DNA of 64,000 nt from Topomyia yanbarensis (Eukaryota; Arthropoda; Insecta; Diptera; Culicidae): assembly GCF_030247195.1 (NCBI RefSeq), contig NC_080671.1, positions 34,322,343 through 34,386,342 on the forward strand, written 5' to 3'. The notes under the pieces were generated by a model. That model ran no database searches and was not told where the DNA came from. It saw nothing but the letters and a program-made list of their open reading frames with translations. Below, in pieces: positions 29,595 to 64,000 of this stretch. The stretch's first letter is position 1. Each line of letters begins with the position of its first letter. The position numbers and the translations under genes were made by a program.

Positions 29595-32500
29595 TTAGTA
29601 TATCCTTTGCTGTTCTTACCAATCTTTCAGCCTGACCATTACTAGCAGGATTATATGGTGGGCTTTTCATAACTTTTATTCCTTGTCTTTCAAGAAAATT
29701 TACAAAAGCATAAGAGTTGAATGGTGGACCTCCATCAGATACTAATACATCTGGTAACCCGAATCGTGCAAAAAATGCTACCAGTTTCTTTAAGACTTTA
29801 TTGCAATCAGTACCTCTTTTCATCCATTCAACTTCTAGCCATTTAGAATAACTGTCAACCATTAGCAGAAAGGTATGATGAGAAAAATGAAAGAAATCAA
29901 TATGTATTCTACTAAATGGTCTAGTAGTAGGTATCCATTTGGAAGTTATGTTCTGTTTAGGAACTACAGCCATGCCATTACAAGCATCACAGTTAGCTGC
30001 ATATTGTTCAATATTCTTATTTATTCCAAACCAATATACTGTCCGTCTGGCTAATTGTTTCATTTTGATTATACCTGCATGGTTGGCATGTAAAAGTTTC
30101 AAAATTCCTCCTTGCAATTTTTGCGGTATTATTACTCTGTCTTTATACAACAAACATTCGTCGACAATCTCTAAATCCTGTTGATTTGAAAAAACATCAA
30201 CAAGACGCTTGTCAATTCTTTTAGGCCAACCATTGCGCATGAATACAATTATATTCTGTAGAAATTGATCATTCTTTGTCTCATTAGCTATCTTGACGAA
30301 ATCCATTGGAAATTCTTGGCTGTAATTGATACTTTTAATCAAATCAGCGTCCAGCTCATTTGGTACCGCCTGCTCCAAAGGGAATCGCGAACAAAAATCA
30401 GCGTTACCCATTTTTGCAGAAGGCCTATACTGTATATCAAATTCATAAATAGATAACTCCAAAATATAGCGTTGAAGTCTTGTTACAAAAATTGCATTTT
30501 TCCCTTCCTTTCCGAAAATCCCTACTAGTGGTTTGTGATCAGTAAATACACTAAATTTTTGTCCATATAGATATTTGTGAAACTTTTTGATTGTGCACAC
30601 TAAAGCTAAAGCTTCTAAATGAAGAATAGGGTATGATTTTTGAGCATTGTTTAAAGAAAAAGATGTAAAGCAAATGGATTTTTCCACACCTTCCACTGTA
30701 TGAGCAATTACGCCACCTAAACCGTAACCAGAAGCATCAGACACAACAATCAAGGGTTTTCTTGGGTCATAGAACTCCAAGAAATCTGTCGCCAAAAGAG
30801 CCTTTTTACTTTCTATGAAGGCTTTGTCACAGTTATCATCCCACATAAATTGTACTCCATCTTTCAAAAGATTGTACAAGTAATACAACTTAGAAGACAA
30901 ATGTGGAATGAATTTGTTATAATAATTTATCAACCCTAAAAATGATTTAAGTTCTGTAACATTTGTAGGTATTTTAGCATTCTGAATTGTCAAAACTTTG
31001 TCCGGGCATGGCGAAAGACCCTTTTCACTGATTAAGTGTCCAAGATAATTTAGTTCTGTTACAAAAAATTTGCATTTGTCTATGTTTACTTTAATGTTTG
31101 CTTTTTCTAATCTTTCCAAAACCAAATGAAGTTTCCTGATACAGTCATTCATATCAGTTCCAGCAATCAAAACATCATCCAAATAGCAAAACACATTATC
31201 TATTCCTTCTAAAACTTGATCCATTACCTGCTGAAATATAGCTGCACTAGAAGAAGCTCCTTGGGGTAATCTATTGTAAGTATATAACCCTTTAATGGTG
31301 TTAATGACCATAAACTTTCTAGACCTTGTTGACAACGATAATTGTGTATAAGCTCCTTCTAGATCTAAAGCGCAAAATATTTTGCAACCTGATAAACTAG
31401 CGAATAAATCTTGTGCGACCGGTAATGGATAAGTATTCGGAATGATACATTTATTGATTGAGACTTTGCAATCAATAACTAGCCTTATATCATTATTTTT
31501 TTTTATTACAATTACTATAGGAGAGGCCCATTCACTTGTTTTCACTGGAGTAATAACCTTTTCTTTCTCCAATTTGTCAAGATAATTTAAAACTTTTTCC
31601 CTTAATCTATAAGGAACGTCATAAGTCTTTTTAAAAATAGGAATACCCTCTTTCAAAATCAAATCGGCTTCATAACCGATAATCGGAGTAGTAAAATCTT
31701 TCTTAAAAACATTGGCGAACTTCTTTTTGACCTCTTGAACTATCATTCCTTTGCGTTCGTCATCAGAAAAAACATTATTAATTGAAAATTTACTCGAGAA
31801 AAACTGCCTCCAGTCTGGGAAAAACACATCCAACCATGGGCGTCCGAGCAAAGGAATGAACGCATTAGTACAATTTAGTACTAACAGCTTTAAAATTGCT
31901 TCTTTTTCCCTCAATTTAACTTTAACATTTGCTTCACCCTCAATCTTCAGCTTGGCCCCATTGACAACAATCAACTGTTTGGAAGAATTTAATAAGGGAA
32001 TACTAAAAGACGACAAATATTGTTCTTTCCCTATAACTGTAACGGAAGACCCACAATCTACTTCCATTGTCAGTGGTTTACCTTCCACTTCCATTTCAAT
32101 TAAACAAGGATTGCTAATATTGTTAATAGAAGAAACATGCATGCATTGAAGTTCACCTGAAAAGTCCTTCTCGTCGTCGCTGTCTGTCTCCGTCCTCATC
32201 CTGTGAAAAAGATCACCCAGGCTGTTCACTTCTGGCCCCGCTGAAATCACAGAGTTTACTGCATCTTTCCTAAGACTTTTTAATTTAAAACATTTGCGCT
32301 TAAGATGTCCTCTTTTTCCACAAAAATCGCAAGAACGGGTTTCATACCGCTGCTCATCTCGACTTCTTCTATAGTCAGCTGGTTGGAATCGCACATGCTT
32401 TTCCCAATATCTGCCTTCTCTCGGCCCAGCATGACTATGGGTATTATAGGGCTTGTACCCTAAACGGCTTTTTATGGAACCTCTGCTTCCCCCTGCTTGA

Positions 32501-33144
32501 GGGCTCTGGTTCAGATTTCTAGCTCTGTCATATGTAACAGCAAGTTTTTCTAAAGCAGACCCACATTTCCTGCTTTCCGATTGCTTTAGTGCAGCAATTT
32601 GTTCATCACCAGCACCAATACCCAGAGTTTTCGCATTATTCCCAGCTAATTCCCAAGTCGCTATTATTTTTTCAGCGGAATCTAATGTCAATTTTGACTC
32701 ATTTAGTAATGTTTTTTGCAATTGTACATCCCGTAACCCAGCTACAATACGCTCTCGGGATGCTGCCTCTTTAAAGGTCCCAAAATTACAGAATTCTGCC
32801 TGGAGCTTTACTGCCAGAACAAAATCTTCAGCAGATTCTCCCGGGTTTTGCTTTCTATTATTAAACTTGTACCTTTGAATCAGTTCAGATTCCGTCTTAT
32901 CAAAGCGAGATTTAAGTTTATCAATCATTGTCTCATAGGATACATCCGACAAATTAGTCGTGGGAAACAGCAGCTTCAATTCGGAAAATACAATTGGCCC
33001 ACTCAAGGTAATAAAATGAGCTTTTTTTGCTTGCTCTTTCACATTGTTCATGTCAAAAAAGTATCCCAATCGTTCAACCCAGTTAGCGAAAGAAGAACCC
33101 CTGCGATATGGTTCAATCATGGCTGCCATATTCATCTGCGCCAT
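29595..33144 (-). pseudogene. Ty3/gypsy gag-pol polyprotein, broken in integrase
   Basis: The frame is open from 33144 (first ATG, MAQMNMAAM; a TTG 15 bases upstream also extends it) to the insertion. A few insert-coded residues (to 29566) follow. Counted from that upstream TTG: gag about 1-270; zinc knuckle C277-x2-C280-x4-H285-x4-C290; protease motif VDCGSSVTV with D368; RT with LPQGASSSAA at 632-641 and YLDD at 659-662; RNase H with VVSDAS (D808), E849 and FTDHKPL (D874); integrase HHCC (H1024, H1027, C1057, C1060) and core D1088, D1142, E1178 with 35 residues between the last two. Gag and pol are fused in one frame with no stop or frameshift between them. The protease triplet is DCG where DTG or DSG is usual. 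The proteins would form cytoplasmic particles and copy and integrate element RNA. Confidence 0.92.
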
Positions 33145-33397
33145 TTTGAATTTGCACAAAAATTATCACAAAGAAAATTCTAAAAAAACGTGAACAATGC
33201 AAACAATAGTAAAAATAGGAATAATGTAACTCACCAATAAAACTTTTCAACGGCGCCAACAATAGCGACCCAGCTTACTTTCAGCACCAGCAATCAGCAG
33301 TACCACGTTTTCCTCGTCAGCCAATCAGCCACGAAAATCCTGTTAATTAAACAAAAGAACACTCTTAGTACAATTGTCAAAAAAAATATTTCTACTA

Positions 33398-39724: not shown

Positions 39725-41848
39725 CTAGTTAGCCGTGTCAGTCGTCTGTTGCTCGGTTCGCCAGATTACCTGTAGCCTACTGGCAATCTGGATGGTAGCA
39801 GCCGAGACTGCGTTCCACTTCTCCACCGATTGACACATCCGCTGAATAAGGGTATCAGGGGTTGTGTCCCAGCCACAGACGTCAAGCATTGCTCTTCTTT
39901 CGACGTCGAACCGATGACATACGAACAGTATGTGTTCGGCAGTTTCATCTACACCTGGGCAGTCCGGGCAGACTGGGACCTCCGCGTGCCCGAACCTGTG
40001 GAGGTACTGTCGGAAACAGCCATGGCCTGACAGGAATTGTGTCAGGTGGAAGTGAACTTCCCCATGGGGTCTTCACACCCAGCTCGATATGCTAGGTATC
40101 AGCCGGTGAGTCCACCTACCTTTCGAGGAGTTGTCCCACTCACGCTGCCATCTGGCGACCGAGGTCACCCTGGTGCGCTCGCGGGCTCCCCTATTTCCAC
40201 GTAGCTCAAAGCACTCCTCATCTTCCCGAATGACCAGCCCGACTGGCATCATGCTCGCTATCACGCAGGATGCATCGTGTGATACCGTGCGGTAGGCAGA
40301 TATCACTCTGAGGCACATCACGCGGTAGGTGCTCTCCAGTTTCTGTAGGTAACTGGTTACCCTCAGTGCTCTTGACCATGACGGGCCGCCGTACCTGAGG
40401 ATAGATACGGCAACGCCTGCCAGTAACCTACGTCTACTGGCGCACACCTTTGAGCTGTTGGACATCATTCTCGATAGTGCCGCAACAGCAGTCGACGCTC
40501 TCTTGCACGTATAGTCGACATGGCTGCCGAAGGTCAGCTTGTCGTCTATAATGACTCCGAGAGACTTCAGACTTCGCTGTGAAGTGATCGCGACTTCTCC
40601 CACATGGATAACTGCATGTTGTGCCGACTTGCGGTTGTTGACGATAACTACCTCCGTCTTATGATGAGCGAGCTCCAGGCCTCTCGCGCTCATCCATTCC
40701 TCCACCGTGCTAATCGCGTGTTCTGCGGTTAGTTCTACCTCAGGAATTGACTCCCCGTAGACCTCCAAGGTTACGTCGTCGGCAAAGCCGACGATCTTGA
40801 CCCCAGGAGGGAACTTCAGTCTCAGAACCCCGTCATACATGAGGTTCCATAGCACCGGGCCTAGGATCGAGCCCTGCGGGACTCCGGCGGTAATCGGAAC
40901 CCTTTTCTGACCGGCATCGGTCTCGTATAGCAGTACGCGGTTTTGGAAGTAACTTTCCAGGATCCGGTACAGACCCACCGGTAGGCTAAGCCGGTGTAAC
41001 GAGAGCGCGATGGCATCCCAGCTTGCGCTGTTGAATGCGTTCTTCACGTCAAGTGTCACTAACGCACAGTATCGAATACCTCGCCTTTTTCGTTGGATCG
41101 CTATCTCGGCAGTATTTATCACTGAGTTGAGAGCGTCCACTGTGGACTTACCCTTCCGAAAGCCAAACTGGTTGCTTGACAGACCGTCCGTATCTTCCGC
41201 GTACGGGGTGAGCCTGTTGAGGATGATCCTCTCAAGCAGTTTGCCAGTCGTGTCTATCAGACAGATTGGTCTGTACGCCGATGGGTCGCCTGGCGGCTTC
41301 CCGGGCTTCGGCAACAGCACCAGTTTCTGCCTTTTCCATCTATCGGGGAAACGGCACTCGTCAAGGCATCTCTGCATAGCTAGCCTGAACATGTTCGGGT
41401 TCGCTATGATCGCTGCCTTGAGAGCGTTGTTTGGAACTCCATCCGGCCCTGGAGCTTTGTTCATTGCTAGGGATTTAGCCACTGCGAGTAGTTCTTCATT
41501 CGTCACTGGAGCCACCATTTCGACCGTGCCCGCACTGTCTCGTAGTGCAGGTGGCCAGGGGCTTGTGGCTCGAGACGGGAAGAGTACTTCGATAATCGTT
41601 GCCAACCGGTCCGGAGACTGTTCTGGGGGTGAGGACCCCCCTTTGGTCTTGGCCATCACAATCCGGTAGGCGTCACCCCACGGATTCGCGTTGGCACTCT
41701 CACACAGGTTGTCGAAACACGCTCTCTTGCTGCTTTTAATAGCCTTGTTAAGGGCTAATTTCGCAGCTCGAAACACTTCACGGCGGTTCTCTCTTGCATC
41801 CTTAAACTCCTGTTTACTTAAACTTGGAGGGTTGATTCCTTCTTTCAA
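39725..41848 (-). pseudogene. R1-clade ORF2 fragment: reverse transcriptase and C-terminal zinc finger, one in-frame stop
   Basis: The frame runs from about 41848 (no real ATG; an in-frame TAG lies just upstream near 41867) to TAG at 39725-39727, 708 codons, with one in-frame TGA at 40073-40075. RT motifs are present: APGPDGVPN at 132-140, KPPGDPSAYRPICLID at 184-199, GFRKGKSTVDA at 229-239, GVPQGSILGP at 322-331 and GFADDVTLEVYG at 354-365 (FADD active site at 355-358). After the stop the frame continues with HLTQFLSGHGCFRQYLHRFG and the zinc-binding CPDCPGVDETAEHILFVC, the C-terminal motif of R1-like proteins. The N-terminal APE-type endonuclease is missing. Apart from the stop the RT domain looks intact, so the copy is fairly young. 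Confidence 0.88.
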
Positions 41849-41896
41849 ACATGAGCAGTTCTTTGTCTATATACCAAATAGCCCTTGGCTTTGTCG

Positions 41897-41963
41897 CATA
41901 ACCGGAACCAAGGATCCGAAGCGGCGACCCATCACAAGCAAACCTATGATCCACTCGTTTGCC
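41897..41963 (-). repeat. inverted flank of the R1 element, right copy
   Basis: The reverse complement matches 38698-38790 over GCAAACGAGTGGATCA, AGGTTTGCTTG and CCGCTTCGGATC.TTGG, with a 41-bp gap. See the R1 element entry. Confidence 0.7.
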
Positions 41964-41979
41964 CGTTGTCGTTGATAAG

Positions 41980-42404
41980 ACAGAAAGAAGGGGAGTTCTA
42001 TTCCAAGAAACTTTCTCGAAGACACGACATTGCTAAAGCTAATAGTTTTGACGCAATCTAAAAAACCCTCTTTTTACTCTTTGGGATCACTGTGCTCAGC
42101 CGAGTTCAAGTTTTTTTTTCAACTTAGATGTGTCGTTTAAAATTTAGGATGAGTTTGAGTGAAATGCTCGATATTTGCGATTGACACCCTCAATAAGAGC
42201 CAGTACAGTCGTTTTTGGTACGTTTTCCTAAGTTTTTCCTCTTTTACATAATTTCCAAAGTTTATTACTTCATAATGATTCAACAGGTTTCAATCGGATG
42301 GAGTTCAGGACAGTTTCGTGGGTCATAGCTTTCGGCATAAAGTTTACTGAATTAGCCGCATTCCATTTCCACTGTCTCAATAAAGACAAACGATGTTTTT
42401 GGTG
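41980..42404. other. no supported feature
   Basis: AT-rich DNA of ordinary appearance. Confidence 0.45.
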
Positions 42405-42435
42405 GCACTCTGTTTGGTAAACTGTTTATGAACGG

Positions 42436-42602
42436 TGCCGGTGGTTGAGTGGTTAGCGTACGCTCATATGAGCGTCACTTATTCCAGTTGGCCTGGGTTC
42501 AATTTCAGCCGAGGTCGTTGGGATTTTTCTGAGGTGGTAGCGTCTTCCTTCGGAAGGGAAGTAAAGTCGTTGGTCCTCGGTGCATGAGTTGATGGATCGA
42601 TA
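42436..42602 (+). mobile_element. tRNA-derived SINE head and body (not Feilai)
   Basis: An A-box match TGGTTGAGTGG lies at about 42442-42452 and a B-box-like GGTTCAATTTC at about 42496-42506 (one mismatch to consensus). The body contains TTCCTTCGGAAGGGAAGTAA and GTCGTTGGTCCTCGGTGCAT, then GATGGATCGATATCTAGT before 28S sequence begins. The body words resemble a second tRNA-SINE family of Aedes, from memory. It has no poly(A) here because it runs directly into 28S. Confidence 0.65.
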
Positions 42603-43850
<1,248 letters not shown>

Positions 43851-44141
43851 AAGTAGAATTCAATTTCTATACTTACTAACAAATGTCCTCCTCCCGTGAT
43901 ATTTGTTGAATGCGCAGTAGTATATACGACCTCTAGCAAAAGCAAGTATCGGACTAACCATTCCTTCCGCGATCTACGTTCGGGCCTGACCGGCGCTGAT
44001 ATTGATCAATAAACACTTTAGGATTACCAGGAGTAAGGTGTTTCGCTACTGCCATGCATAATTATCTACTGATTCCCTGTGCAATTTCAGTAGTCCAGAT
44101 CGATAACGCAACCAGGGATGGTCGCACAAGCTCAAGCTCAA
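43851..44141. other. unidentified end of the chimeric block
   Basis: Contains GATATTTGTTGAATGCGCAG, GATATTGATCAATAAACAC, CAGGGATGGTCGCACAAGCT and ends with a short (CAAGCT)n-like tail next to the right direct repeat. I could not place it in 28S or in a SINE. Confidence 0.4.
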
Positions 44142-44324
44142 GCACTCTGTTTGGTAAACTGTTTATAGTGCTTTTGTTCACTGCGTTTACCAAAATTTTA
44201 TATGGCCTGCCAAATCGGGTACTGCTAGGCGACTTTCGACAGCTGTAAAATATGCTAGTCCCTGCAACTGCGTGAATAAAGGGCCATGAATTCTGGAATA
44301 ACCACGTTTTTATGACGTTATACC

Positions 44325-44386
44325 GAAGGCAAACAGAACATAATTATAAAATCATGGCTTTTATAATTATGTTCTGTTTCCCTTCA
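44325..44386. repeat. strong hairpin (28-bp arms, 7-base loop)
   Basis: Arms CGAAGGCAAACAGAAC.. (44325-44351) and its inverse (44359-44385) pair over about 27 bases with one or two mismatches around loop TCATGGC. It could be a tiny foldback element or a small-RNA precursor. Confidence 0.7.
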
Positions 44387-44545
44387 GTAAAGCCCGCGTA
44401 ACGCTTTTATTGGTGGAAAACATTGTTTTTGTTTTGTGATCTTAAGTCATGTTTTCCGCCATGTCATTACCACATCGATTTTTTGTATGTAAACTAGGAC
44501 ACAACTTTAAGAACATTCCCAGCAAGCCAGCAATCTATCTATCTA

Positions 44546-44769
44546 TCTATATATATATAAAAGTCAAAGTTTGTATGTATATGATTTATGGACTCCCAAA
44601 CGGCTTAACCGATCGTCATCAAAATTTATACGTAGTAGGCATTTGTTATGGAGCGTGTTTGTGTGCTATTGGTTGGGGAATTTCTGTCCGACAGATGGCG
44701 CGTCGAACAAATTGTGTTTTTCTCCTATTTTGTTGAAAGTCGCAGCAACGCGCGATGGGTATCAGCTAG
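44546..44769 (+). mobile_element. short nonautonomous Helitron
   Basis: Begins TCTATATATATATAAAAGTC and ends GGGTATCAGCTAG, the TC..CTAG ends of Helitrons. It lies between an A (44545) and a T (44770), the usual AT target with no duplication. Internal words (AAACGGCTTAACCGAT, GTAGGCATTTGTTATGGAG, ACAGATGGCG) are those of a common insect Helitron family as I recall it. No Rep/helicase is coded, and the 95-codon frame over it is not a gene. Confidence 0.75.
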
Positions 44770-45789
44770 TCGTATATAAAAGTTTACAATAAGTTACAAA
44801 TAATGACAGACTAAATCAAAATTACAAATAGTGCAAGCAAAAATTATGTTTTGTTGTAAGAAGTTCACATAAAATGCAAATCTGTGATCGAAATACAATG
44901 TTGACTTGAAGTTATTTATTAGTCCACTACAACTTAAAACAAAATTGTACCTGCGGAATAATAAAGACAGTTTTGAAACATTGTATAGAAATTAATTTGC
45001 AATTGGATTAAACTGCAAAATCGTTAAAAAAATAGTCACCTCCTTATAGCACTTCGCAAATTCTCTGCCAGACTACTTCAATATTTGAGCAATAAAAATG
45101 GCTTGAGTACAGAATGTAGGTAGTGATTTGTCAGGTATAGAAGGTATCATTGGAGTGCCATATTTAGGATGGATTGTGGTATTTTTAGATCGTAATCACA
45201 AAGCGATAAAAATGATCAAATTTAATCGTTGCTTGATAGTGTAGAAATAGATGAGTACATAGCGGCTATGCTGGGAATACGAAGATCTCAGGTTCGAAAC
45301 TGGAAGTTAAATCCGTAGCAGGTAATTTTAATAATTGATGTTCCAGTAACTCCAACCTCACCCATGAAAAACATATCTGCCAGTGTGGGCGTAACTGTGT
45401 CTTATAACAGAATTATGAAAATTTCATCCTGATTTTTTATTTTCATATTATTTTTAAAAAAATACTTCTTGTTACCACATTGGGGACCTTAAGCTGTATA
45501 AACCTTCATGTGTGATTGTAAAGTTGACCATATATAAACTCAAAATGTTAAGCTAAATGATTTATAATGCTTCTGATGAGATCAAAATTCGTCGTAAATC
45601 ACATAGTTCTACTATACCGATTTGTTGTACGTATATGGCCTCCACTTTTGTTCACATAGAAGAGATCTGTGCATTTTATACAATCAGTTCATATCGTTGA
45701 AGAGTACAGTTAATCAAATTGCAACTTATTAAAGTGAATCAAAATGTTAGCTGGGTTATTCATAACTCATGATGTTATTCATAGATTTA
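44770..45789. other. no supported gene
   Basis: AT-rich. An isolated B-box-like GGTTCGAAAC near 45293 has no accompanying tRNA fold. Confidence 0.45.
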
Positions 45790-46550
45790 GGAATATTTGT
45801 TCACAAAACCAAAAAAATCTGGATACTTTCTCGTAAACTAATTCACGAAACTCGGAATTTTATTCATGCATCCATACGATCCTCGTTAACTACTTCATGA
45901 TTCTTAATATATTTGTCACGGTCTAAAATCCGTGCTCGGGAAATAGTTTGCAAAATCATCAAATATTATTCATGTATTCATGAGTATACTAGTCAACATT
46001 TTCCATTAGCGTTCGTGAAATATTTCACGAAATTGTACCATAATATTCAAGTATTCGTGATCTGGTTCATGATTTGTATAATAGCCACGATTTACAATTC
46101 GTTACCGTGAAAAAGTTGACGATATCATATATGAGCTTACCATTCGTACTTGTGAAATAGTTCACAAAATCATGAAATATTTTTCATGTATTCGTGAACT
46201 GGTTCATGATTCCTTGTTTAATAGATCCGACTTACCATTCGTGCTCGTGAAATAGTTCACGAAATCATGAATTATTCATGAATTAGTGAACTGATGCATG
46301 GTCCCTAATATACTAGCCACGATTTATCATTTGCATTTGTGAAATATTTCACGAAATTATGCAATAATATTTATGAATTCGTTAACTGGTCCATGATTCC
46401 TACTACAATAGCCACGATTGACCATTCGTTGTTGTGAAATAGTACATGAAATCATAGAATATTGTTCATGTATTCGAGAACTGGTTAATGATTCCCAGTA
46501 CTTGACCTAGGCTCTATCTTGCGTGCTTGTAATATTTAGAAGACATTCCT
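45790..46550 (+). repeat. satellite-like array around CGTGAAATAGTTCACG
   Basis: A unit of roughly 55-98 bp recurs at about 45937, 46013, 46106, 46160, 46246, 46335 and 46433. Each has (C/T)GTGAAATA(G/T)TTCAC(G/A)AAATCATG, then an ATTCATG(A/T)ATTCGTGAACTGG-type part and a TAGCCACGATT-type part. The central word is itself palindromic. Copies are 70-85% alike by eye. Confidence 0.7.
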
Positions 46551-46568
46551 AATCATTTTCAATTTCAT

Positions 46569-46626
46569 TTTTTTTTATTCATTTCGTTTATTTGATAGGC
46601 ACAAATGCGTTAGCTTGGCGGTGCCA
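46569..46626 (-). mobile_element. 58-bp I-clade LINE 3'-end insertion
   Basis: On the minus strand it reads TGGCACCGCCAAGCTAACGC then CCTATCAAATAAACGAAATG and AATAAAAAAAA. This is the same 3' end as the truncated element at 6411-7522. An 18-bp duplication AATCATTTTCAATTTCAT sits on both sides (46551-46568 and 46627-46644). It is an extreme 5' truncation that keeps only the last ~50 bases and the tail. Confidence 0.88.
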
Positions 46627-46860
46627 AATCATTTTCAATTTCATGCAACATGGTCAAGAAATTTTCACGGGAACTCTTTCACAAAATCTAGAGTATTATT
46701 CGAAGAATCGCTTTTGTTCCATGCACTATTCCATGAAATGTCAGATATGTCCAGCTGCTAGCGACCAGTAAGAGGCACGAGCAGTAAATATAAGAAAACT
46801 ATTAGGACCTAGAACATCCTTATTCATTTGATAGGCATAATTCACAAAAATATAAAATCC

Positions 46861-46911
46861 TTTCTTTATTGTAGATATTTCAACCTTACCCCCGTTTTCG
46901 GGTTAGAAAAA
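46861..46911 (-). mobile_element. Feilai-like SINE 3' remnant
   Basis: TTTATTGTAGATATTTCAAC then TTTTCGGGTTAGAAAAAAC match the reversed 3' part of the SINE; the tRNA head is missing. Confidence 0.5.
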
Positions 46912-47951
46912 ACTACGCCTTGCTATACCATACCTTCGTATGACTTTAATGAGAGACCATGATATAAAAAATACATTGCGAGATATTTATCCCTTACAAG
47001 TGCAGATTTTTTTCTATTTCTTTCCTCATTTAACAGTTTTGGTTCAAACATATTTGAAGTCTATTGGATGTATTACCAATATAACTGTAATCAAGTATTG
47101 AAAAATAAGTCAAAATAATCAAAAATTAAGTTTTGGAGCTATGTAAACTTGCAGTATTATGGATAGCATCCGCATTAGGCTAAGGTTGTTACATTAGTGA
47201 CGATAACTCTTTTTCGGTAACTCGTCACAATATACGAAAAAACTCTCTCGTATCAGACAGTTTCCGTAGTTGTACCTTTGATGACCTCAAGAATATAATC
47301 TTTGAAATGTATCCCAGGATTGAATATGGCTGCTTCTATATTGTCTCCCGTAATAAATAATATTAAAACAGCAACATTAATATATTCGTTGAATGAATAA
47401 TAAAATGCATCATTCTTTCTTTCATGAGCTGTTCTTAAAGACATACATTTTCTTCTTCGAAAATTGCACTATGCATGAATTTAAGAACTAATCTAAGTTA
47501 ATGTGCGTTATTTATGCTTTAATACAAATGAGATTGTTTTTAAACAAGCTGTTTGAACCTATTTTAGTCATATGCAATTTATCGGCTGTATGTCGAGAAA
47601 TTAACGCGATCTGAGTTAGTTCCAACTTTTAGTACAATACCGCTTTTGCCGCAACGCACTCATTGTGGTATGCCAAATGTATTCCCATACAGTGGAAATT
47701 TTCGCATGCCGCTGTCATTGTATTCTATTCTATATATTCTATTTTACTTTCCGCATGCCAAGCATTCGATCTGCTGCCTTTTTTTGAGCAAAGATTTCTT
47801 CAAGTATATACAGCAGAATAAAATATTAATAAAGTTGGATCAGCTTCCAGAGTATCTCTACAACATCAAAAAAGTTCAAACATTCATGCAACCACCCGAG
47901 GCCATCACCTTAAAAAATAAGTTTCTTGGAATGATTCTTCGACAAGATAAT
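46912..47951. other. no supported gene
   Basis: A 115-codon frame at 47646-47993 runs into a minisatellite and has no domain that I recognise. Confidence 0.4.
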
Positions 47952-48122
47952 TTATGCCTAACGTCCATTATGCCAATCGTCCATTATGCCTAACGTCCAT
48001 TATACCTAACGTATATTATGCCTAACGTTCATTATGCTTAACGTCTTTATGCCTAACGTCCATTATGCCTAACGTACGTATGCCAAACGTCCGTATGCCT
48101 AACGTATTTATGCCTAATGGGG
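47952..48122 (+). repeat. minisatellite, unit ATTATGCCTAACGTCC
   Basis: About ten units of 14-17 bp (TATGCCTAACGTCCAT, TATGCCAATCGTCCAT, TATGCTTAACGTCTT). The family is the same as the inverted TTTGGCATAA array at 38279-38420. Confidence 0.85.
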
Positions 48123-48159
48123 TACACCCGTTCGTGATAGAGTTCATGGAACCTGCTTA

Positions 48160-49160
48160 TTAGTCACGCATATTCCTGTTTATATGTACAAAAACCGATA
48201 ATAACCAAAGATGACAGATCGCGATAAGGCGAAGAGAAATTACGAATATCATAATAAAACGGATGATGTTAAGAACATCAGTTACATCACTCCACGTGTC
48301 AAATTCGAAAGTAATTAATTAAGCAAAGAAATTACGAGAAACATGATTAAGATCCTAAAATCAAGAACATAAAACCATACCATTTGTGACAAAAATGTGA
48401 AAAATCGTGACTAAGATCTTGAAATTATGAAAATAAATCACTCTAATCGTGACTAAAATCTCGAAGCAACGTGAATAAAAATTACAAAAATCGACACTAA
48501 GATCCTGAAATCATGAATATAAAACACAATACTTGTGATTAAAATATCAAAAATCGTGACTAAGATCCTGAATTTATGAACATAAATCACTTTACTCGTG
48601 ACTAAAATATCACGAAAACGTGAATAGAAACTATGAAAATTGTGACAAAAATCCTGAAAACATTAATATAAATCACATAACTTACTCAAAAATCGTGACT
48701 AGTATCCTGGAATCATGAGCATGAATCACTCAACTCATGACTAAAATACCACGAAATAGAAATCCCGAAAATTGTGACTAATATCCTGCAATCATCAACA
48801 TAAATCACGCTACTCTGTCAGAAAAATCTGATAGCAAACTCATGAAAAATATAACGATAACTTGATGAGAAATCACAAAAATCGCCAATAAACTCCTGCA
48901 ATCATGAACATCGTTTAACTGCCGTTTGTGTATTCCCAAATTATGAACAAGGATCACAACAAAAACTAAACATCTCTAGAGAACAACCACAGTAACCCTA
49001 CCAAACTTTCGAATGTAACGCCATGTATATACTCGACGAGAACTAGTTTTTTGGAAACAAAAATAGTTTCATGAATACGAGATTTATTATTCATAATTTC
49101 AAGAACTTGGTCACGGATTTCGTAAATTTTGTTTTCATGAATTCATGAACGGATTTTTTA
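48160..49160 (+). repeat. satellite-like array around AATCGTGACTAAGATCCTG
   Basis: Repeating parts AATCGTGACTAAGATCCTGA, AATCATGAACATAAATCAC and CTCGTGACTAAAATATCACG recur about eight times at 110-125-bp per full unit (for example 48409, 48478, 48555, 48635, 48691 and 48770). It shares short words such as TCATGA and CACGAA with the 45790-46550 array. Confidence 0.7.
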
Positions 49161-50330
49161 CGTGCGACAACTGCAAATCTTAGTGGATGTAAACAATATA
49201 CTCTAAAGAGAAACTGGGCAGATTTGGTTCATTCCGGTCAAATATGAAACATGTACCACTAGTTTGAAAGTGTCGCAATATATAGCGACTCACTTTTTAC
49301 TGTATTCAAGTTACCGTACTATTTGTATTTTTGTGTTTCAAACTCACCTCGTCAGTAAATAGCACCAATATGGAGCTAAGTTAAACGATGTAACAAATTT
49401 CGCATAAAAAGCCGCAAAACTTTCGATATTCGCATAAAAAAGTCGTATGTTCTATTAAACCGTCCGAGAGATTTTTAAAAGTTTAACATTAGAACACCAA
49501 CGAAATGGCTCATGTTCAAAAGAAGGAAAGTTTTTAAAGTAGTTATTACTGAAGTAGTAGTTGAATTACAGATGAAGTATCATTTATGTCAACTGGTAAT
49601 TCAAAATCATTATGATCTGTTATGTCATGCGCTAATATTCCCTGTGGATTATTTTCATGTATTCATAAATTAACAACATTTGGGGTTGGAAAGCGAAGCA
49701 CTACAATGTTTTTTGGTAAATCGCGCTCTTTGTTGCGACCAATTACTGGCGTACAGGATAAATGCAGATATAGTGCCACGATTTCGACTTTTAATGCCGG
49801 TCGGGGCTCGATTAGAGTGGTGGCCTTTCAAATTTTTGTGACCATGATCGTGAACCGAACTAAAATTGCATTGAAGTAATGGAATACGGCCAAGTAGCTC
49901 CCTAGTGATTCTAACGTGCTTAGATCGATTACTACAGCGAAAGGCAATATCATGGACGAGCGAATCAACATGATACTTTCAATACGATCTCCTAAAGATT
50001 CGTTATTATTATTGAGAACATGTGACCTGTTCAACATTTGTTTTAAACAATCATTAACATACAGAAGTCATTAATTATAAATCTAAACCATTAGCCAAAC
50101 AATTTATTACCGCCAACCAATTACATTTCGTTTTGTTTCCATGCATCCTTCCAGCTTCATGTATGAAATATCCTAAATGTATCTGCTGAATCATTCGTCG
50201 ACTCTCCAAGTCGTACAGAAGAGCTGTTAAATTTCATCTCATCGTTCGCAAAACTTTTCCAACCTACACATAGGAAAGAGAAGTGAAGCTAACTGCTCGC
50301 TAGAGAAACGAACGAATTACCCAACAATAA
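49161..50330. other. no supported gene
   Basis: Frames of up to 85 codons (49622-49879) show no motif. Confidence 0.4.
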
Positions 50331-50925
50331 AGGTTCCCCCACACTGACGCGATTTTGTCGCAGCGATTGCAAAAATTTCGCGAAGCGACTTGTCGCTAGC
50401 AACTCTGCTCATGGCGACAGATGTGCGCTCCCATACTGACGCGAACTTTTCGCGTCGGCTGTTGCGAAATTGCAGCGATTTTTGAACAATCGCTGCGTGC
50501 GAGCATTGTGTCACAGTCGCTGGGTGTTCGCCAGATATTCAAGATGGCGCAGACTAATCAACTATTGTCATTTGGCGCATCTCAACTTTACATAAGTTGA
50601 CCAGAATTCCGAAAAAAATGAAAATAGTTATACGAAAAAAATCGCCTAAATTTCAAAACCAAACTGATGGACGCTTCTATACCACTACCAAGTCCAACAA
50701 AACTATTTGAAAACGAAGATTACATACCGTATGAAAGCCAGGTAAATCGAATAAATACTGGAGCGGTAAAATTGAATTGAAAGTAGGGTGGTTGGAGCTA
50801 TTTACTATAATCCAGTGCTTCAAGTCCTTCGAGAATAAAAAAATATTCCAAAGCGGACTCATCTTTCCAAAGAGCTGATCGAAAAATAGTTCGACGAACC
50901 CAACGATTCCGCCGTAGAAGAATTA

Positions 50926-51306
50926 GTGAAAGCATTGGAAAAACGAAACGTCGGTAATAATACGGATCATGAGAAAGGCCTCCCGGAAAAGGACGATCAT
51001 TTCTTGTTCAACGAAGATGTTTTAGCATTTTGTTTGAGGGAAGAAATTAACGCCAATGAACGGTTGAACATGTTATGCCAAAGATTCCATAACAATCTGA
51101 AATATAAGAATATAAAGTTCATACCGCAAATCGAGCGGGAGATTGAAGTTCCCCACAACATAAAGATAATCGATGAAATCTTGGGTACGGACTCGATCGG
51201 AATTCCCATGCGATCAGATGATAATCATGTTTCTTCAGCTGGACGAATAAATAGCAACCTCTCGTCGAGCAAGTTCTGTATGTTGGTTAACGGTATAACC
51301 CAATAG
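50926..51306 (+). pseudogene. host-gene fragment, possibly the N-terminal part of CC2D2A
   Basis: A 126-codon frame with protein-like composition, extending upstream in frame to FDEPNDSAVEELVKALEKRN near 50892. It contains LPEKDDHFLFNEDVLAFC, ANERLNMLCQRFHNNLKYK and FIPQIEREIEVPHNIKI. These read like conserved metazoan protein rather than transposon sequence. Its orientation and position upstream of a clearer CC2D2A match suggest it belongs to the same captured gene, from the region before the C2 domain. I cannot align it from memory with confidence. The frame ends in TAG at 51304. A 5' splice site is not obvious. Confidence 0.4.
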
Positions 51307-51848
51307 AGCAAGTGCACATCAAATCAAAATATACTCACACTAGCTTTGTTCCAGTACAAGGAAATCACTCCGGAGTAAACAGGAGCAAAAAATTCTTGCT
51401 CCTTTTTACTCCGGTTTGCTACCAGAAGAAGAGAGTAAAGGAACGATTTTCTCCGGAGTACTTCCAGTTTCTCCTGGAACAGACCTACTGATAGCTGCTC
51501 AATTTCTCACGAGTATATGTACATGTATCTGTCCGCCTAGATTAAGAGAACATTCGAAATCAAAACCCCACTGCTTCTGGTCGGATATACGCGCAGCATC
51601 GACGAATCATCTGAATACACCTCTATCGAAGACTGCATATCAAGAAGACTGCTAACTGTCCAGAATCTGGAGACAGTAACAGCAACGCCACTTGCGGGTA
51701 CTTCCCATAGTGATGCACACACACATATACACTTTTACATTAAGCTTCCTACCTTCAGACAATAGAGGTGCTGTAACCTCTGTCGCTTCTCGTTTGTATG
51801 GGGGAAGGAAAGAGATATCAGTCTTCTTAATATGTAGTCTTCGCCTCT

Positions 51849-52680
51849 TTGCTAACCGGATCTAATCTGCCGTATAAGCGAGAGTTAACTTACATCTCCT
51901 TGTTTATAATCCTGGTACCGAATGTGGAGACTCCCAAGTTCGGCACCAACGGGCTGGAGTGTGTGGTGTTGCAGCAGACTGGTGCGTATTTATCTGTGAG
52001 GAGAGGAGTACCGCAGCGAGTTTCCCAGGAGGGGATGCTACCGCTAGCAATGTTGATCAGTGGCGAAAGGGTCTGCGTTACAAGGCTGCTTGGTCCGATC
52101 AACGTTCCCTTTGTGATCGATGAAAACGTGGAGCTAATGATATATAGGCGATATGTTTCGCCAATTCCTATTCACTACAACATGGACGCATGTTCACAAA
52201 TTGGCGGAATTCGGTCCAATAACCGAGTAATTTTTAATCGGTTCCAAAGATAGACAATATTTATGAAGCCAAGCTTCGCCGAAGGATTAAGGTGTTTTAT
52301 TACCTTGTTTTACATCTTATTGGAGTACGATGTGTATCTTATCTGAGGACAAAGTCTCCTAACAGGCGATAGTACTTTTGTCATTATACGAGAGAACAAC
52401 GATTTCTACTTTGTAGATCCAACCAGCGGTAAAAAATACTCCAGCTCCGATACGTACTGTCCTTTAAGTAGAATTTACTACTTTGTCAATCAGGACAACG
52501 TCTAGGGAAATATTCAAAAAGAGAACCGGGTGTTCCTGACGCAGCTAGATGTGAACAAATCAGCCTACTGAAGACCGCTATTCAAGCGATCTCATGAAGC
52601 TCCCACCGGTTGTATTCACGATGGAATTTACTTGTACAAAAATGCACTGAATGTACGAGATTTGTAAAAAACTATTGAAA
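51849..52680 (+). pseudogene. CC2D2A-like gene fragment (ciliary transition zone protein)
   Basis: The frame 51849-52253 reads ELTYISLFIILVPN, then MLISGERVCVTRLLGPIN and YRRYVSPIPI. These line up with the CC2D2A region after its C2 domain (YITLFI.., SGK.VFITR.L.P.NPP, ARYVSLIPF). A second piece at about 52368-52600 reads TFVIIRENNDFYFVDPTSG, SSSDTYCPLSRIYYFVN and QDNV-stop-GNIQKENR, which fits the family's ..CPL..V..L....NVWFNIQ.. stretch. Two of its stops, TAG at 52503-52505 and TGA at 52569-52571, fall where the family has Trp. Between the pieces the reading frame changes. CC2D2A is a transition-zone protein needed for cilium assembly. This copy cannot be functional and covers only part of the gene. 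Confidence 0.65.
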
Positions 52681-52699
52681 AAAAGATTGTTAAGAAGAT

Positions 52700-53267
52700 T
52701 GCAATTTGGAGAACGCACCGTAAAATTACATGGAACCGGTTAGTTTATGAAGCTATCAATTGTGTATTCTCGGATGGTATGCTATAGCAAAAAACGCAAT
52801 AACTGTATTCTAGTTTCAGCCATATAAGTAACCAACTTGCATACGCCCTTCCCAACTTTCAGTCGGACACTAGTCTGGAAACTAATACGAATGGCAATCT
52901 GGAACTGTTCAGTCAACTGTTATCCTTTCTTCAATAGTATATACAATATAAAGTATGCTACAATTTAAACTTTAAACTTGCTTTTCTCGAAATCAATATA
53001 TTGTCACTTAGCCCGGTCTGACGTAACTCCGACCAGTTCGCTCTCAGCAAGACTTATTCATTACCAGCCATCGAAGTTTAGTCTTTGGTCGTGGTTGCCG
53101 AACGAACCATCGCAGATCCGGATCGCAAGAATCTGGGGGATTTGTGTAATCCTCTATTTTCTCCACAGTTATTTCCACCAAACCTTATGACACTGTTGCT
53201 ATAATTTGTATTTTTCGTAATTTTGCAGTTTTATTACGTACGAAAATCTGTTAGTTTACACTGTACA
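52700..53267. other. junction between the two captured gene fragments
   Basis: No clear coding match. A 70-codon plus frame at 52978-53190 is unsupported. It may contain 3' UTR or intergenic DNA carried along between the CC2D2A-like and FNIP-like pieces. Confidence 0.35.
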
Positions 53268-55215
53268 TCAGGTCAAGGAAAAGCATTTTTGGTTAAAGTT
53301 AACAATTAACATAAGGAGCGAATAATTATTTATAATCTTTTGCGCAGCGAATGCCTGCTCAGCTTTATACTCGTCGAAAGCCTCTACGAAGACAATCCGC
53401 TTGATCTCGCTACATCTTACGAAGTAAGATAGCTCATTTAGAATTTTATCCATGGTATTGCTCAATTGGGGGCTTCTGCAGATCATTGTTCTCGACAGTT
53501 TCACCGGGTGTCCGACGGTTCCATACAAATAGCTACATTGGACCCACAGTACGATGTACGGGTGATTGGTAGTTAGTTTGCACCGCTTCTCCTTCTATCG
53601 CTGTATTGTAGCACAATCTGTATCTGCTTCGTAAGCGGAACTACTCACAGGGGCAATGGTACTCACCCAGCCCAGGTAGTACTTTAATATCGCCGTTAGT
53701 AGTGCGCTGATGAAAAAATGTGTATCCTTAATGTCGGCCAGCAATAGCAGGTAACAAAGATCGTTCATAAAATTATTATCAATTTTAAGCGCAGCCCGAT
53801 TAGAACATGTACTGCTTTGAGTTCCAAGAGTGCACGCAATACTGCTTAGCGTTAGCCACATGGAATTTACCAGTTTGGGTACAGTAAAAAAATCCACTGG
53901 GCACTGCTGCGTCATGCCGGCAACCAGCATTATCTGTAGCAATAAATTAACACAACTGTTTGAACAGGTAAGTGAAGGGTTTCTATCAAGCCTACCTGGA
54001 GTAACTGCGGCTACCTGTAGCTTGCGTTTTCTTAATCGCTTAATCGTTCGCCATTCTTAAACCACACAGCATTGATTCAAATATACTCATGTGTTCCGAG
54101 CTGAATGCTTCAATTTCCTGCAGCATGTCATCGTTTAGTTGAACGCACAGCACAATTCCTAGACGTGCCTTTTTGTGCAAAGGTCTCCCGTGATAATTGG
54201 TTGCAGTGGAAAGAACTTCCCCGCTAAACGCTTTTTGTCTAGTCAGTACTATGGTTTCACTATTCCGTCGATTTTTACCACCGGCGCAACCATCGCTCGC
54301 TGTCACTTGACTGCTAATGTTCACCGAACCGGTCGTATTGACCTCGATGAAAGCTGCCATACTGACTATAGTCGTCTAAACTTGTGCAATTCAGAGGCTG
54401 TGGAATATCAATACTGGTATCTAAACTAAGTCTTCGAAAACACTCGAAATCACTAGAAATTGATGCTAGACTGTTTCGGTGCGATGGCGTGGTTGACTTG
54501 ATGAAAACGCCCAAGGTTCCGTTCCACCATACCCTGAGTCAAGGCCACTTTTGGTTGAAAGTCTCGGATCTGCCAGATGCTCCAAATGCGCAAACTCGAT
54601 TGGCGGTGGTGGCCTTTGTCTGTGGTTGTACGAAGTATCATATTACGTCAAAGTGGACGAAGTAACAGTAAACGACCGTAGTGACGTTGTACCTATGGAG
54701 CTACGATCACTTTCCGACGTATGTCGGCCGTTGTATAGTGCATTCTGACCGATACTTGGCAGTTCATAGCCCAAGTAGGTGGAAGTGGATACTTTTTTAC
54801 TGCTGTTGCTGCTACTGTTGGCTACTGAAACACGTAAGCATACTTAATGGTTTTTCGAGTTTTTAATCAATGTACCTTCAAACTGCTGTCCTGGAAGACT
54901 ATAGGTGCAGAACCAAAAATCATTTCGGCCATCGACGTGGTATCGCTTTTGGTATAGCTGTTGTGCTGATATAAAATTTTGCGATGATAAAATTTTCCAC
55001 GCTGTTGGATCGCTTTGTGGCTTTGTATTGCGGTACTGCAAGTGGACGTTGTTGCTGCATTGGATTCGCCGGAAATTTTCTCGACCGCACTGGAATCAAA
55101 CAGTAGTTTACGACCTCGAATGTCACATTCGCAGACAAGAACACGAACCTGGTCAGCGGTGAAAATTGATTCATCTGAGGAATATTTCTGTGTTGCTGAA
55201 CTAGCACTGCGCTTC
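53268..55215 (-). pseudogene. FNIP-like gene fragment (folliculin-interacting protein)
   Basis: On the minus strand: about 55210-54870 reads TADQVRVLVCECDIRGRKLL then FDSS, with MAEMIFGSAPIVFQDSSLKV further on, matching the FNIP N-terminal domain (..QIRL.VY..C..RGR..LFDSS, GEMMFGS..). At 54300-54060 come LHKKARLGIVLCVQL and EHMSIFESMLCGLR. At 53933-53660 come VPKLVNSMWLTLSS and FISALLTAILKYYLGWVSTI. At 53570-53400 come LYGTVGHPVKLSRTM and ILNELSYFVRCSEI. A likely 62-bp intron (GTAGGC..CTACAG, 53995-53934) is kept, so capture was of DNA, not mRNA. At least four stops or frameshifts occur (near 54870, 54823, 54653, 54500 and 53590). FNIP binds folliculin and AMPK and acts in Rag GTPase/TOR signalling at lysosomes. 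The C-terminal domain is missing. Confidence 0.8.
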
Positions 55216-55327
55216 TTGGTATACTATAGTTGAAAACAGATTGTTGAATAATGCAATATTTATAGTCAACTGATTTACTATCCTCTCTTCTTGTTTGTTT
55301 TCTTACTGTGTCTAGACTGTGTCGAGC

Positions 55328-55754
55328 CAAAGAGAATAGGGAAAGAGACGAAGAGTGAAAATCAGTCAAAACGGCAACACGCCCTTTATGATGATTTCAA
55401 CACTAGAATTTTGGCAACCGCTTCTATAGGCAGCACTTTAAATGACTCCTATTATATTTTGAAAACAAACCGTATGTCGATCGATGGATTTGTTTATCAA
55501 ACGATGTGCATTTCGAAACAAAGAGATGAAATAATTCTAAAGCTTATTTTTACTCATACATATACTCTAGAATGCACCTTACAATCACGATTGAACTAAA
55601 TTCTGACGAAAATTCAAATTTCTTTTTTGATAGAAGTACAATACTTATCTCCTCCAACTCAGGCATGAGTAATGTTTATTTACATTGCACGATTGGTCTG
55701 CTCAATAAAGTATTTTTGGTTTCACACTATTCGTCTCTTTCCCTATTCTCTTTG
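55328..55754. mobile_element. hAT-type MITE nested in the captured FNIP-like region
   Basis: Terminal inverted repeats of 30 bp (CAAAGAGAATAGGGAAAGAG.. at 55328-55357 and the inverse at 55725-55754) differ at one base. The 8-bp TGTCGAGC lies directly outside both ends (55320-55327 and 55755-55762), the target size of hAT elements. No transposase is coded; the internal 102-codon and 73-codon frames have no motif. It is younger than the capture event. Confidence 0.88.
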
Positions 55755-56087
55755 TGTCGAGCAAACGACCTGCTTCACGCAAAGATGTTTTAAATATAAA
55801 GACACGCGGACAAATACACTATTCTCACTGAATGGCTGATAAAACAATCGAAAAATATTTTTTTTTTAATTTTAGGACAACATACGTCGTATTACCATGA
55901 GATTAAAATTGAGGTTGTCCCATCTAGCTACTATAGTTTGCAAATGTCACTTTGTGTCGCTTGTAATGCGAAATTCGCGCCGGTGTGGGCGCACATGCGA
56001 ATCGCACTGTCGCAGGAAGCGCGACGAAATCGCTAAGCGAAATTTTCGCAGTCGCTGCGACATAATCGCGTCAGTGTGGGGGAACCT

Positions 56088-57479
56088 TAAAACAGCAAAC
56101 ATTTTTGGCACAGCATCATTCTCCTCCAGCCTTCAGCGGATGAAAAATGTGTACTATTAGGCGATAATTCCGGCCCCGTTGGTTCCGGGTGGATGGGTAC
56201 ATATAAGCCTAAACACAAACCAATGACTTGGGCGCCGAAACCGGCGTTACAGAGAAGATGCAGAAAATGATGGCATTGTATATGTGCGCTATTAAATCGA
56301 AGCCAATAAAAATTTCATGAGAAACTATACCTTCTGATAGCATTCTAGCTAGCTTGGCATCACAAACTTTGCCGTTGTGGGTCTTCCGGCCACTAAAAAA
56401 ACAGATCGCCGGTGTTTGCATAGTGTAAAGGACAACTTTCGTACAATAGCTTAACTTTTCTCGATGGCGGGCTGACTTGAAACAAAAAGTTTCATCCCTA
56501 GGCGAACGCTTAAATACTGACAGAACTGATGGCCAAGCTGTAGGTACGTATTAATGTGCTACAACTTTCCAGACGATAAGACTGCGAGGAAGCGGGGGTT
56601 AGTTGATTTAGGGGAAACTGGATTAGAATTGCCCAACTTTATAGGTTGATTTTATTGGTTTCTACATCGGCAATTGATGGCCGTAAACATATTCTAGTTC
56701 TGGTGTCGTGTGAGCTGCAGAGTTTGTCATAATAGACATCTTTATATAGCTGCTGAAAAAAAAATATAAATTCAATGTGAAGATATTTTATATACATTTG
56801 ATTCCAGTCATACCCCCTATTACGGTATCATTTTCAATATTAGAAAAAGAAATTCTCAATTAAGCTAGCGAGACACTATAAAGCATCCTTTTCAATCTAC
56901 TTAATCATCGTTGTTGTAAAGCTAACCGAGTCTCTACAACCAACAAGCACCATCATGCCGGAGAGCTTTTGTACGCCGACGTTGCACTTATTCACAGACT
57001 TCGTACGCCACCATCGCGTTAAGAATCCCAACGCTTTCAATATAAATTGCGGGATTTACGCTTGGGACCGACCATTCACGGTCCCTGTCTCGCCAGAGTT
57101 TTGTTTTACCGGATTATGTATTTGATGCTGACTGCTGCAGAAGATGTATGGGTGTCTTGTGTTTGCTAACTTTATTTTCAACCTTTTCCAATTTGAGAGT
57201 TTCGGGGATGAATACCATTCGCTTTTCAGGTGAAAATTGTGTTTAGTATACACGACTCGGCTACGTAGGATGTTTCTTCTTTTGGAGAAAATGCGCAGTA
57301 TTGGAAGCTGGGTAGACTTATACAAAAATCATTGAAGTGTAAGGGGCTAAATTTTTGCAAAGCATTTCTCTAAAATATTGTAGTATACGTTGTAAGCCAT
57401 TCTAAATCTTACTAAATGAATGTCTAATTAATGTGTTGTTTATTCTTTTGTTATTTCTTTCTCGGCGACAAGCAAGAAA
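56088..57479. other. no supported gene
   Basis: Frames of 70-89 codons (56209-56421 and 57056-57325) lack motifs. Confidence 0.4.
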
Positions 57480-62079: not shown

Positions 62080-64000
62080 ATGAAGATCCACACATGAGAT
62101 GCCATTGTCGACTTCCTTCATCGGACGGAGAAATTTCTGAAAAGCAGCGAGGAGTTAGACGTGGACCAAATCAAATTTCGTTTAGAAAAACTGGAAGCCA
62201 AATGGGATGAATTCGAGGAAATACAATCAGAAATCGAAGGTTGCGTGAAATATAAGAGCAATGTGGATGATCATCGGCAAGTAAGGGCAAACTTTGAAGA
62301 AAATACTTCGAGGTAAGGGCTGGGTTGGTCAAAAAGCTGCCTCGACAAACGGGGGAAGCCGGCGAACATAACGGTACCGGCTTTACTAATGCGACCAGCG
62401 CCGCAAATAAATTTACCGGAATTTGACGGCTATTATGAAAAATGGCTTCCATTTCACGATACGTTCAGAGCCCTGATAGACTCTTCTCCACAGTTAAGTA
62501 ACATCCAAAAATTTCTTCTCTCAAGGGTGATGCACTTAGACTAGTCGATTCCTTTCCGATGAGTGATGCGAACTATAGGGTTGCTTGGGACGGCTTGGTG
62601 TCAAGATTCTCCAATCGATATCTACTAAAAAAGCGTCATTTGATGCGTTGTTCGAGTTTCCAAAGATAAAGAAGGCATCAGCGGTTGGAATACACGATTT
62701 GGTTGATTGTTTTGAGCGCAATACGCAGATCTTGGACCAGTTAGGTGAAGTGACGAGCGGTTGGGGTGCCATGTTAACGCACTTGATGGTTTCGAAGCTA
62801 TGCGACAGTATTCAGGTACAGTGGGAGGAGCACGTTTCCCAGAACGATGAACCGTCTTTCAAAATGTTGGCGGACTTTCTGAAGACGCAGACTCGGGTGT
62901 TGGATGCAGTGTTAGTGGATCAACGAGCTACAGGTTCGAGCTACGCGCCATCGTCGAGCGGTAGTAGAGATCATCTGACAAAGCTTTCGGTCAACGCGGC
63001 AGCCCAAGCGTCTGGTCCAAACTGCATGGCTTGCAGTGAGCAACATTTTCTGTCAAGATGTCCTTCATTCAACAATTTACCGGTCGATGACCGGCTACAG
63101 TTATCTAATTCAAAGCGACTTTGCAGCAATTGCCTGGGACGAAATCATCTAGCGCGGGATTGCCCTTCAAAATACCGTTGTCGCACATGTTCCAAGAAGC
63201 ACCACACTTTTCTTCATCCGGGATTTCCTGGAGCTGGCTTGGCTGTAACATCAACAGCGAATCAAGACGATAACGCACCGGCCCCGTCAACTTCTGCCAT
63301 ATCGAACACTGGTGAATCGGTTTCTGGTTCGGCGACAACAATTTCTTCAAACATGGCGGCGAGGTATTCAAGGTCTCACGTATTTTTGCTCACGTTGGTG
63401 GTGAAGGTTCAGGACAATTTGGGTAGGGCTCATTACGCGAGGGCCTTGCTGGAATCTGGATCTCAGGCCAACTTGATGTCGGACCGGCTTTGCCAACTTC
63501 TAAAACTACAAAGACGTGATAAAAACATGGAGATCGTTGGGATTGGGCAATCTCAACAACAAACAACCTACGAAGTTTCGGCAAATATTGCTTCAAGAAT
63601 CTTTGATTTTTCTCTGTCGATGGATTTTTTGGTTTTGGGGCAGGTTACGGACAACCAGCCAACTACGTCTCTTCCATAGGCAACCTGGAAACCACCGCAG
63701 GACATGGTTCTCGCTGATCCCGAATTCTATGTGTCTGATGCCATCGATTTAGTGCTAGGTTCGTAGTTCTTTTATGATTACCACCTACTCGATGGTGGCC
63801 GGCCACAAATTCGCAAGATCGATAAGGAATTACCGGTTTTTATCAATACAGTGTTTGGTTGGGCGGCTGCAGGCGAAACAAATCTTGATGAGGAAGTTGG
63901 GAAGGTTAGCTGTCATTTGGCGTTGGTAGATTCGCTAGACAAGGCCATCGAGAAATTCTGGACTATCGAAGAGCTTCCAGAAAAACCACTGCGCTCACAA
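62080..64000 (+). pseudogene. BEL/Pao retrotransposon gag-protease-pol (5' part, broken, runs off the window)
   Basis: Frames in order: 62100-62310 reads IVDFLHRTEKFLKSSEEL (gag N-terminus); about 62400-62525 reads PQINLPEFDGYYEKWLPFHD; a 364-codon frame at 62585-63679 has three zinc-knuckle-like motifs (CMACSEQHFLSRC at 147-159, CSNCLGRNHLARDC at 180-193, CRTCSKKHH at 199) and a protease motif ALLESGSQANLM. The family usually has LLDSGSQ there, so the catalytic Asp is Glu at residue 290. After TAG at 63677-63679 the frame continues with DMVLADPEFYVSDAIDLVLG, FYDYHLLDGGRPQIRKIDKE and VFGWAAAGETNLDEEVG, typical of the BEL segment before RT. A further TAG follows near 63763. At least two frameshifts and two stops make it inactive. 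RT and integrase would lie beyond the window. Confidence 0.85.

Follow-up and report, generated by a model that had tools for sequence, protein, structure and literature searches.

The window analysed here, a stretch of DNA of 64,000 nucleotides, harbours a unit of 5.76 kb (50331-56087) in which fragments of two host genes, CC2D2A and FNIP, are enclosed in opposite orientation by a pair of inverted termini. The features along this unit, with the evidence for each, are the following:

50328..50330, left target-site duplication TAA (sequence; matches 56088-56090)
50331..50453, plus strand, left terminal inverted repeat (TIR) with a repeated internal motif at 50430-50453 (inverted-repeat search, end alignment)
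50454..50599, left subterminal sequence, probably TE-derived, with the CC2D2A boundary within it or at its end
50600..52935, plus strand, CC2D2A gene fragment with stops and frameshifts (tblastn, protein search)
51347..51486, probable nested palindromic MITE with GTTCCAG...CTGGAAC ends made out by eye (inverted repeat 51370-51414)
51627..51843, nested MITE of 217 nt with 31-nt TIRs at 87% (inverted-repeat search)
52739..52819, plus strand, retained CC2D2A intron, 81 nt, GT-AG (spliced frame against parent)
52936..52984, junction of about 50 nt between the CC2D2A and FNIP pieces, assigned to neither parent
52985..55257, minus strand, FNIP gene fragment with the start codon mutated to ATT (Pfam, tblastn)
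53934..53995, minus strand, retained FNIP intron, 62 nt, GT-AG (spliced frame against parent)
55320..55762, nested MITE-like insert with 36-nt TIRs (92%) (inverted-repeat search)
55966..56087, minus strand, right TIR (inverted-repeat search, end alignment)
56088..56090, right target-site duplication TAA (sequence)

The inverted arms of the unit (50330-50391 and 56027-56088) span 62 nt and are 90% complementary, and when the two 300-nt ends were aligned locally with gaps, the match covered about 120 nt with a score of 109, compared with at most 26 in 200 simple shuffles. Allowing up to 3 mismatches, the window contains the 18-nt terminus at two places and at no third, and it was absent from 100 dinucleotide shuffles. 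Each terminus is therefore found only once, which disposes of the idea, raised in an earlier note on this DNA, that the ends belong to two separate full MITEs. A second copy of the terminal motif sits 92 nt inside the left end and is mirrored by a counterpart at the right, an arrangement reminiscent of the layout common for transposase-binding repeats. TAA stands directly outside both ends of the unit, at 50328-50330 and 56088-56090. Matching inverted termini, subterminal repeats and the outer TAA had all been described in the earlier note, and all of them were found, with end coordinates that proved exact.

PIF/Harbinger elements generate a 3-bp TWA duplication upon insertion, and rely on a PIF-type transposase with a Myb-like partner protein. 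The TAA of the unit fits such a TWA duplication, and the duplication together with the TIRs would place the unit, provisionally, in the PIF/Harbinger superfamily. A match of only 3 bp could also occur by chance in AT-rich DNA, a point that counts against the explanation favoured below. An origin as a Pack-MULE was rejected, as the flanks directly outside the ends share only TAA and not 8-10 bp, the length of duplication typical of MULEs according to the available text of PMC5225508. As the earlier note had anticipated from the letters, no transposase family match was detected in the 39 frames, out of 77 of at least 40 aa, that were scanned against Pfam; these comprised 38 of the 39 frames of at least 60 aa plus one of 52 aa, and the omitted frame of at least 60 aa shares a single base with the unit. 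Searches with the TIR in viral and genome contig collections that hold no mosquitoes gave 0 matches and are little informative, and a full-text literature search found no mention of a 13-nt piece of the terminus. The paired TIRs, the 3-bp target-site duplication, the host-gene sequence copied at the DNA level and the absence of transposase from the scanned frames are among the features by which Pack-TIR or Pack-TYPE elements are recognised.

The identity of the CC2D2A piece on the plus strand, already proposed in the earlier note, is settled by comparison with CC2D2A of mosquitoes, where the match was decisive (E 9e-220 in the protein search, with Topomyia; E 6.6e-137 by tblastn); Pfam offered a sub-threshold CEPT76_peptidase only, with 23.2 bits against a cut-off of 27.8. 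The fragment corresponds to residues ~537-1311 of the 1376 of the Topomyia protein (P0012), from which two internal coding stretches (~745-835 and 863-959) are missing, a correction to the earlier description, and the CC2D2A-derived stretch amounts to ~1.9 kb once nested inserts are discounted. Its left edge is not sharp: by tblastn, the Topomyia protein aligns from 50600 onward, and in one match an Armigeres protein already from 50550. When the parental residues ahead of the fragment were compared with 50400-50605, residues 490-536 scored 18, where the 95% shuffle line stood at 28, and residues 440-500 scored 27 against a line of 26 and a shuffle maximum of 31.

The FNIP piece, on the minus strand as the earlier note had read it, was confirmed by Pfam, which recognised FNIP_N at E 6.6e-11 and, split into three successive parts, FNIP_M at E 3.2e-7, 1.2e-19 and 1.3e-15, all above the Pfam cut-off; no FNIP_C half was found in the unit by the same scan. 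Excluding nested inserts, it comprises ~2.3 kb and runs from the mutated start codon at 55257 to about residue 731 of 1268 (Malaya numbering), ending at 52985. A second amendment to the earlier description is that the piece starts with the gene's own start codon, now mutated; a start within intron 1 was dropped, MALFNKLFST being found directly ahead of the piece. Two matches to the parent that overlap each other are separated in the FNIP copy by an extra 113 nt (53206-53319, minus strand), which may be an intron, a duplication or an insert.

Each piece keeps one exact intron. With 52739-52819 removed, the CC2D2A copy reads HRKITWNRHISNQLAYAL, where the parent has HRKTIWNRYISDQLAYAL; with 53995-53934 (minus) removed, the FNIP copy reads ENASYR*PQLLQIMLVAG, where the parent has ENACYRWPQLLQIMLAAW. 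These introns of 81 and 62 nt indicate that both pieces were copied as DNA, and a processed (retro)copy is thereby ruled out.

Inside the unit we also recognised two MITE-like inserts and a probable third one, a further correction to the earlier description. The MITE at 51627-51843 splits the CC2D2A codons EYTS/LLTGS and is flanked by a likely 7-bp target-site duplication, CCTCTWT (by eye). Because it divides captured codons and carries this probable duplication, it must be younger than the capture.

With ~8000 candidates sharing most words scored in each search, the best named protein matches for both pieces came from mosquitoes. Over selected in-frame blocks, clean alignment segments that set the identities on the high side, the CC2D2A copy was 83.5% identical to Topomyia yanbarensis across 462 sites (72.5% to Malaya), and the FNIP copy was 82.1% identical to Topomyia across 475 sites (69.7% to Malaya), most of the N-terminal block being absent from the FNIP count for the reason that the Topomyia record is a shorter isoform. 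In maximum-likelihood trees of 12 and 13 chosen rows, each copy was sister to Topomyia yanbarensis, with support values of 100/99 and 100/100, and the host genome of the window is thus probably that of Topomyia or of a near relation. Changes restricted to the copy or to Topomyia were counted at 55:8 for CC2D2A and 70:9 for FNIP (Fisher p = 1.0). The share of changed sites was somewhat higher in FNIP (70/392) than in CC2D2A (55/382; p = 0.20), which speaks somewhat against the favoured explanation. A simple simulation with random synonymous codons and a transition bias of 2 gave a neutral divergence per site of 0.067 (0.050-0.086) for CC2D2A and of 0.084 for FNIP (from 0.067, the upper bound falling beyond the simulated range), and each TIR arm has diverged by an estimated 0.057, although the interval is wide (0.027-0.118). 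Within error, the two gene copies and the ends of the unit are thus of similar age. Stop codons occupy 8/504 and 4/581 block codons of the CC2D2A and FNIP copies, and 7 of them (5 and 2) fall at mapped sites beside 125 copy-only changes, where ~5% of changes would be expected to create stops without selection. In this light, the unit looks like a neutral relic, decayed and non-coding.

The convergent order of the two pieces had raised, in the earlier note, the question of whether their donors were neighbours. Among the matches listed, 9 of 13 mosquito species, including Topomyia, have the parental CC2D2A and FNIP on separate contigs, contigs being told apart by size alone, a proxy for the position of a gene. 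In six of these (Topomyia, Malaya, Sabethes, Wyeomyia, Toxorhynchites and Uranotaenia) the parents were found, among the same listed matches, on different chromosome-size contigs, which in Topomyia measure 470 Mb for CC2D2A and 429 Mb for FNIP; another of the nine, Ochlerotatus camptorhynchus, has a fragmented assembly and is little informative. The count took in species with a contig size in both record lists, the records being 90%-identity clusters with one contig each and one of the lists holding the best 120 of 183 matches; Culex was left out, its two records coming from different taxa. Same-size contigs were seen in the other 4 of 13 (Armigeres and three Anopheles), about what unlinked genes on three chromosomes would give, namely one-third. 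The parents are probably not neighbours, and in the closest available relative they appear to sit on different chromosomes. Capture of one contiguous segment from a locus with convergent genes, as the earlier note suggested, would agree with the order of the pieces and with those four species, a proportion near that expected if unlinked, but it is at odds with the chromosome-size contigs of Topomyia and five other culicines and would require that, at the joint, CC2D2A had lost its final ~65 codons and FNIP its final ~535. We consider it highly improbable. What stands of the earlier interpretation is the DNA-level, intron-bearing capture of two genes followed by decay; an origin from neighbouring segments is not supported, the parents lying on different chromosome-size contigs in Topomyia and those five other culicines.

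No continuation of either parent was recognised in the junction between the pieces, where their next residues scored 30 against a 95% shuffle line of 36 and 26 against a line of 29. Outside the unit, a tblastn of 15 FNIP and CC2D2A proteins against the whole window, run at E ≤0.01 and at E ≤1, returned a single match with E 0.28, which is at chance level. Intact CC2D2A and FNIP genes exist elsewhere, both of them in Topomyia (protein searches), and we thus discarded the possibility, contemplated in the earlier note, that the unit is the native locus of both genes. These data also bear on whether the chimera came first, in the form of a duplicated pseudogene patch of both genes that was later enclosed by transposon ends or copied whole. 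The donors may have been arranged otherwise at the time of capture, and a 3-bp duplication by itself is weak evidence, which leaves some room for such a patch. Against it, no parental sequence lying past the captured parts turned up outside the termini: the tblastn gave nothing more than the match mentioned above, and in three of four direct comparisons with the flanks the score stayed under the 95% shuffle line. The remaining comparison, of the C-terminal part of FNIP with 40000-50330, scored 54 with a line at 53 and a shuffle maximum of 60, and is read as chance, though it counts slightly against the favoured explanation. We therefore regard a pre-existing chimera as improbable.

The main rival is a fusion of neighbouring elements, where two members of one family, with one gene piece each, would have inserted close together and been mobilised as one, or where a single element would have captured twice, the inner termini being lost in either case. 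In plants, Pack-TYPE elements that inserted side by side are described as having fused, a maize Pack-PIF cluster among them (PMC8903248), and the opposite orientation of the pieces (CC2D2A plus, FNIP minus), with their abrupt junction, would suit such a history. No inner terminus was found, however, either within 3 mismatches of the 18-nt end or by blastn of the ends against the window, and the ages of the pieces agree within error, although serial captures close in time would match too. We judge this origin unlikely, while giving it more weight than the two alternatives above.

The remainder of the window holds several other repeats. A 28S rRNA fragment (42603-43676, minus strand) ends close to what we take to be the R1 insertion site, about 17 nt beyond it. 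After the fragment comes a reverse-transcriptase frame (40073-41866), also on the minus strand, and the two probably represent an R1-like element, truncated, together with the rDNA it targeted. A gypsy-type pol frame, open for 1198 codons (29566-33162, minus strand) with RT, RNase H and integrase domains, may be recent. An open frame at 62579-63679 (plus strand) matches DUF1759, a domain presumably as in BEL/Pao gag, and tandem arrays occupy 46137-46495 (period 95 nt) and 48348-48677 (period 149 nt).

Our preferred explanation is that the unit is probably a non-autonomous, PIF/Harbinger-like Pack-TIR whose interior was filled in when repair switched template between two chromosomes, and which decayed afterwards. 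A break or an excision gap inside a TIR element would have started the process. Repair synthesis would have copied from one of the host genes, jumped to the second on a different chromosome and finally returned to the element, so that its transposable ends came to enclose ~1.9 kb of CC2D2A together with ~2.3 kb of FNIP. As the duplication would suggest, the unit may then have moved with a transposase supplied in trans, and it would since have drifted without coding constraint. The gap-filling model published for animals (PMC8277862), as far as its available text goes, explains this anatomy with one extra switch. More tentatively, and with some doubt on our side, a mosquito PIF/Harbinger-like family might build multi-kb chimeras from two chromosomes in one repair episode. 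If so, interchromosomal template switching at DNA transposons would assemble two-gene combinations in insects, much as plant Pack elements do.

Gene capture by TIR transposons is well documented in plants, and for animals there is a broad survey (Tan et al. 2021, PMC8277862), whose accessible text reports 370 Pack-TIRs in 100 genomes with a median capture of 224 bp, 323 of the 370 being hAT or TcMariner. None is given there for the insect reference genomes surveyed, with Ssk-FB4 (FB4 family) recorded in fly populations. The model advanced in that text combines gap filling and template switching, with fork stalling followed by transposition for multicopy cases, and 59.8% of the unique cases are intrachromosomal, so that a capture from two chromosomes is not the commonest pattern there. 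In the literature searched, and to the extent of its available text, we found no animal element with long pieces of two genes, nor any published report of this CC2D2A/FNIP element, and an arthropod MULE survey (PMC13359780) deals with gene capture only in general terms in its available part. An element with about 2 kb from each of two genes that seem to sit on separate chromosomes would preserve interchromosomal template switching in readable form, and since both parents are intact in Topomyia, a search of that genome would allow breakpoints and microhomology to be read directly.

Compared with animal Pack-TIRs, as the available text of PMC8277862 presents them, the unit is likewise a TIR DNA transposon with duplicated host DNA, for which gap filling with template switching has been proposed, but it has two donors of ~2 kb each and a TAA duplication, against their median of 224 bp. 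Plant Pack-PIF and Pack-TYPE elements (Gisby and Catoni 2022, PMC8903248, in the text available) share with it a PIF-type host, putative in our unit, and the captured coding DNA from multiple chromosomal loci, although Pack-PIF elements form many-copy families, whereas here we find one decayed element in an insect. The earlier note held that such a capture would be unusual in a mosquito, which is only partly so: Pack-type elements are already known in animals, including derivatives of Muta1, a TIR family of Aedes aegypti of which ~20% of derivatives align with host genes in the accessible text of PMC5225508. Muta1 is, however, Mutator-like, and the example shown in that text is a 276-bp fragment of one gene. 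What is unusual here is the combination of two donors of ~2 kb each with a putative PIF-type host in an insect.
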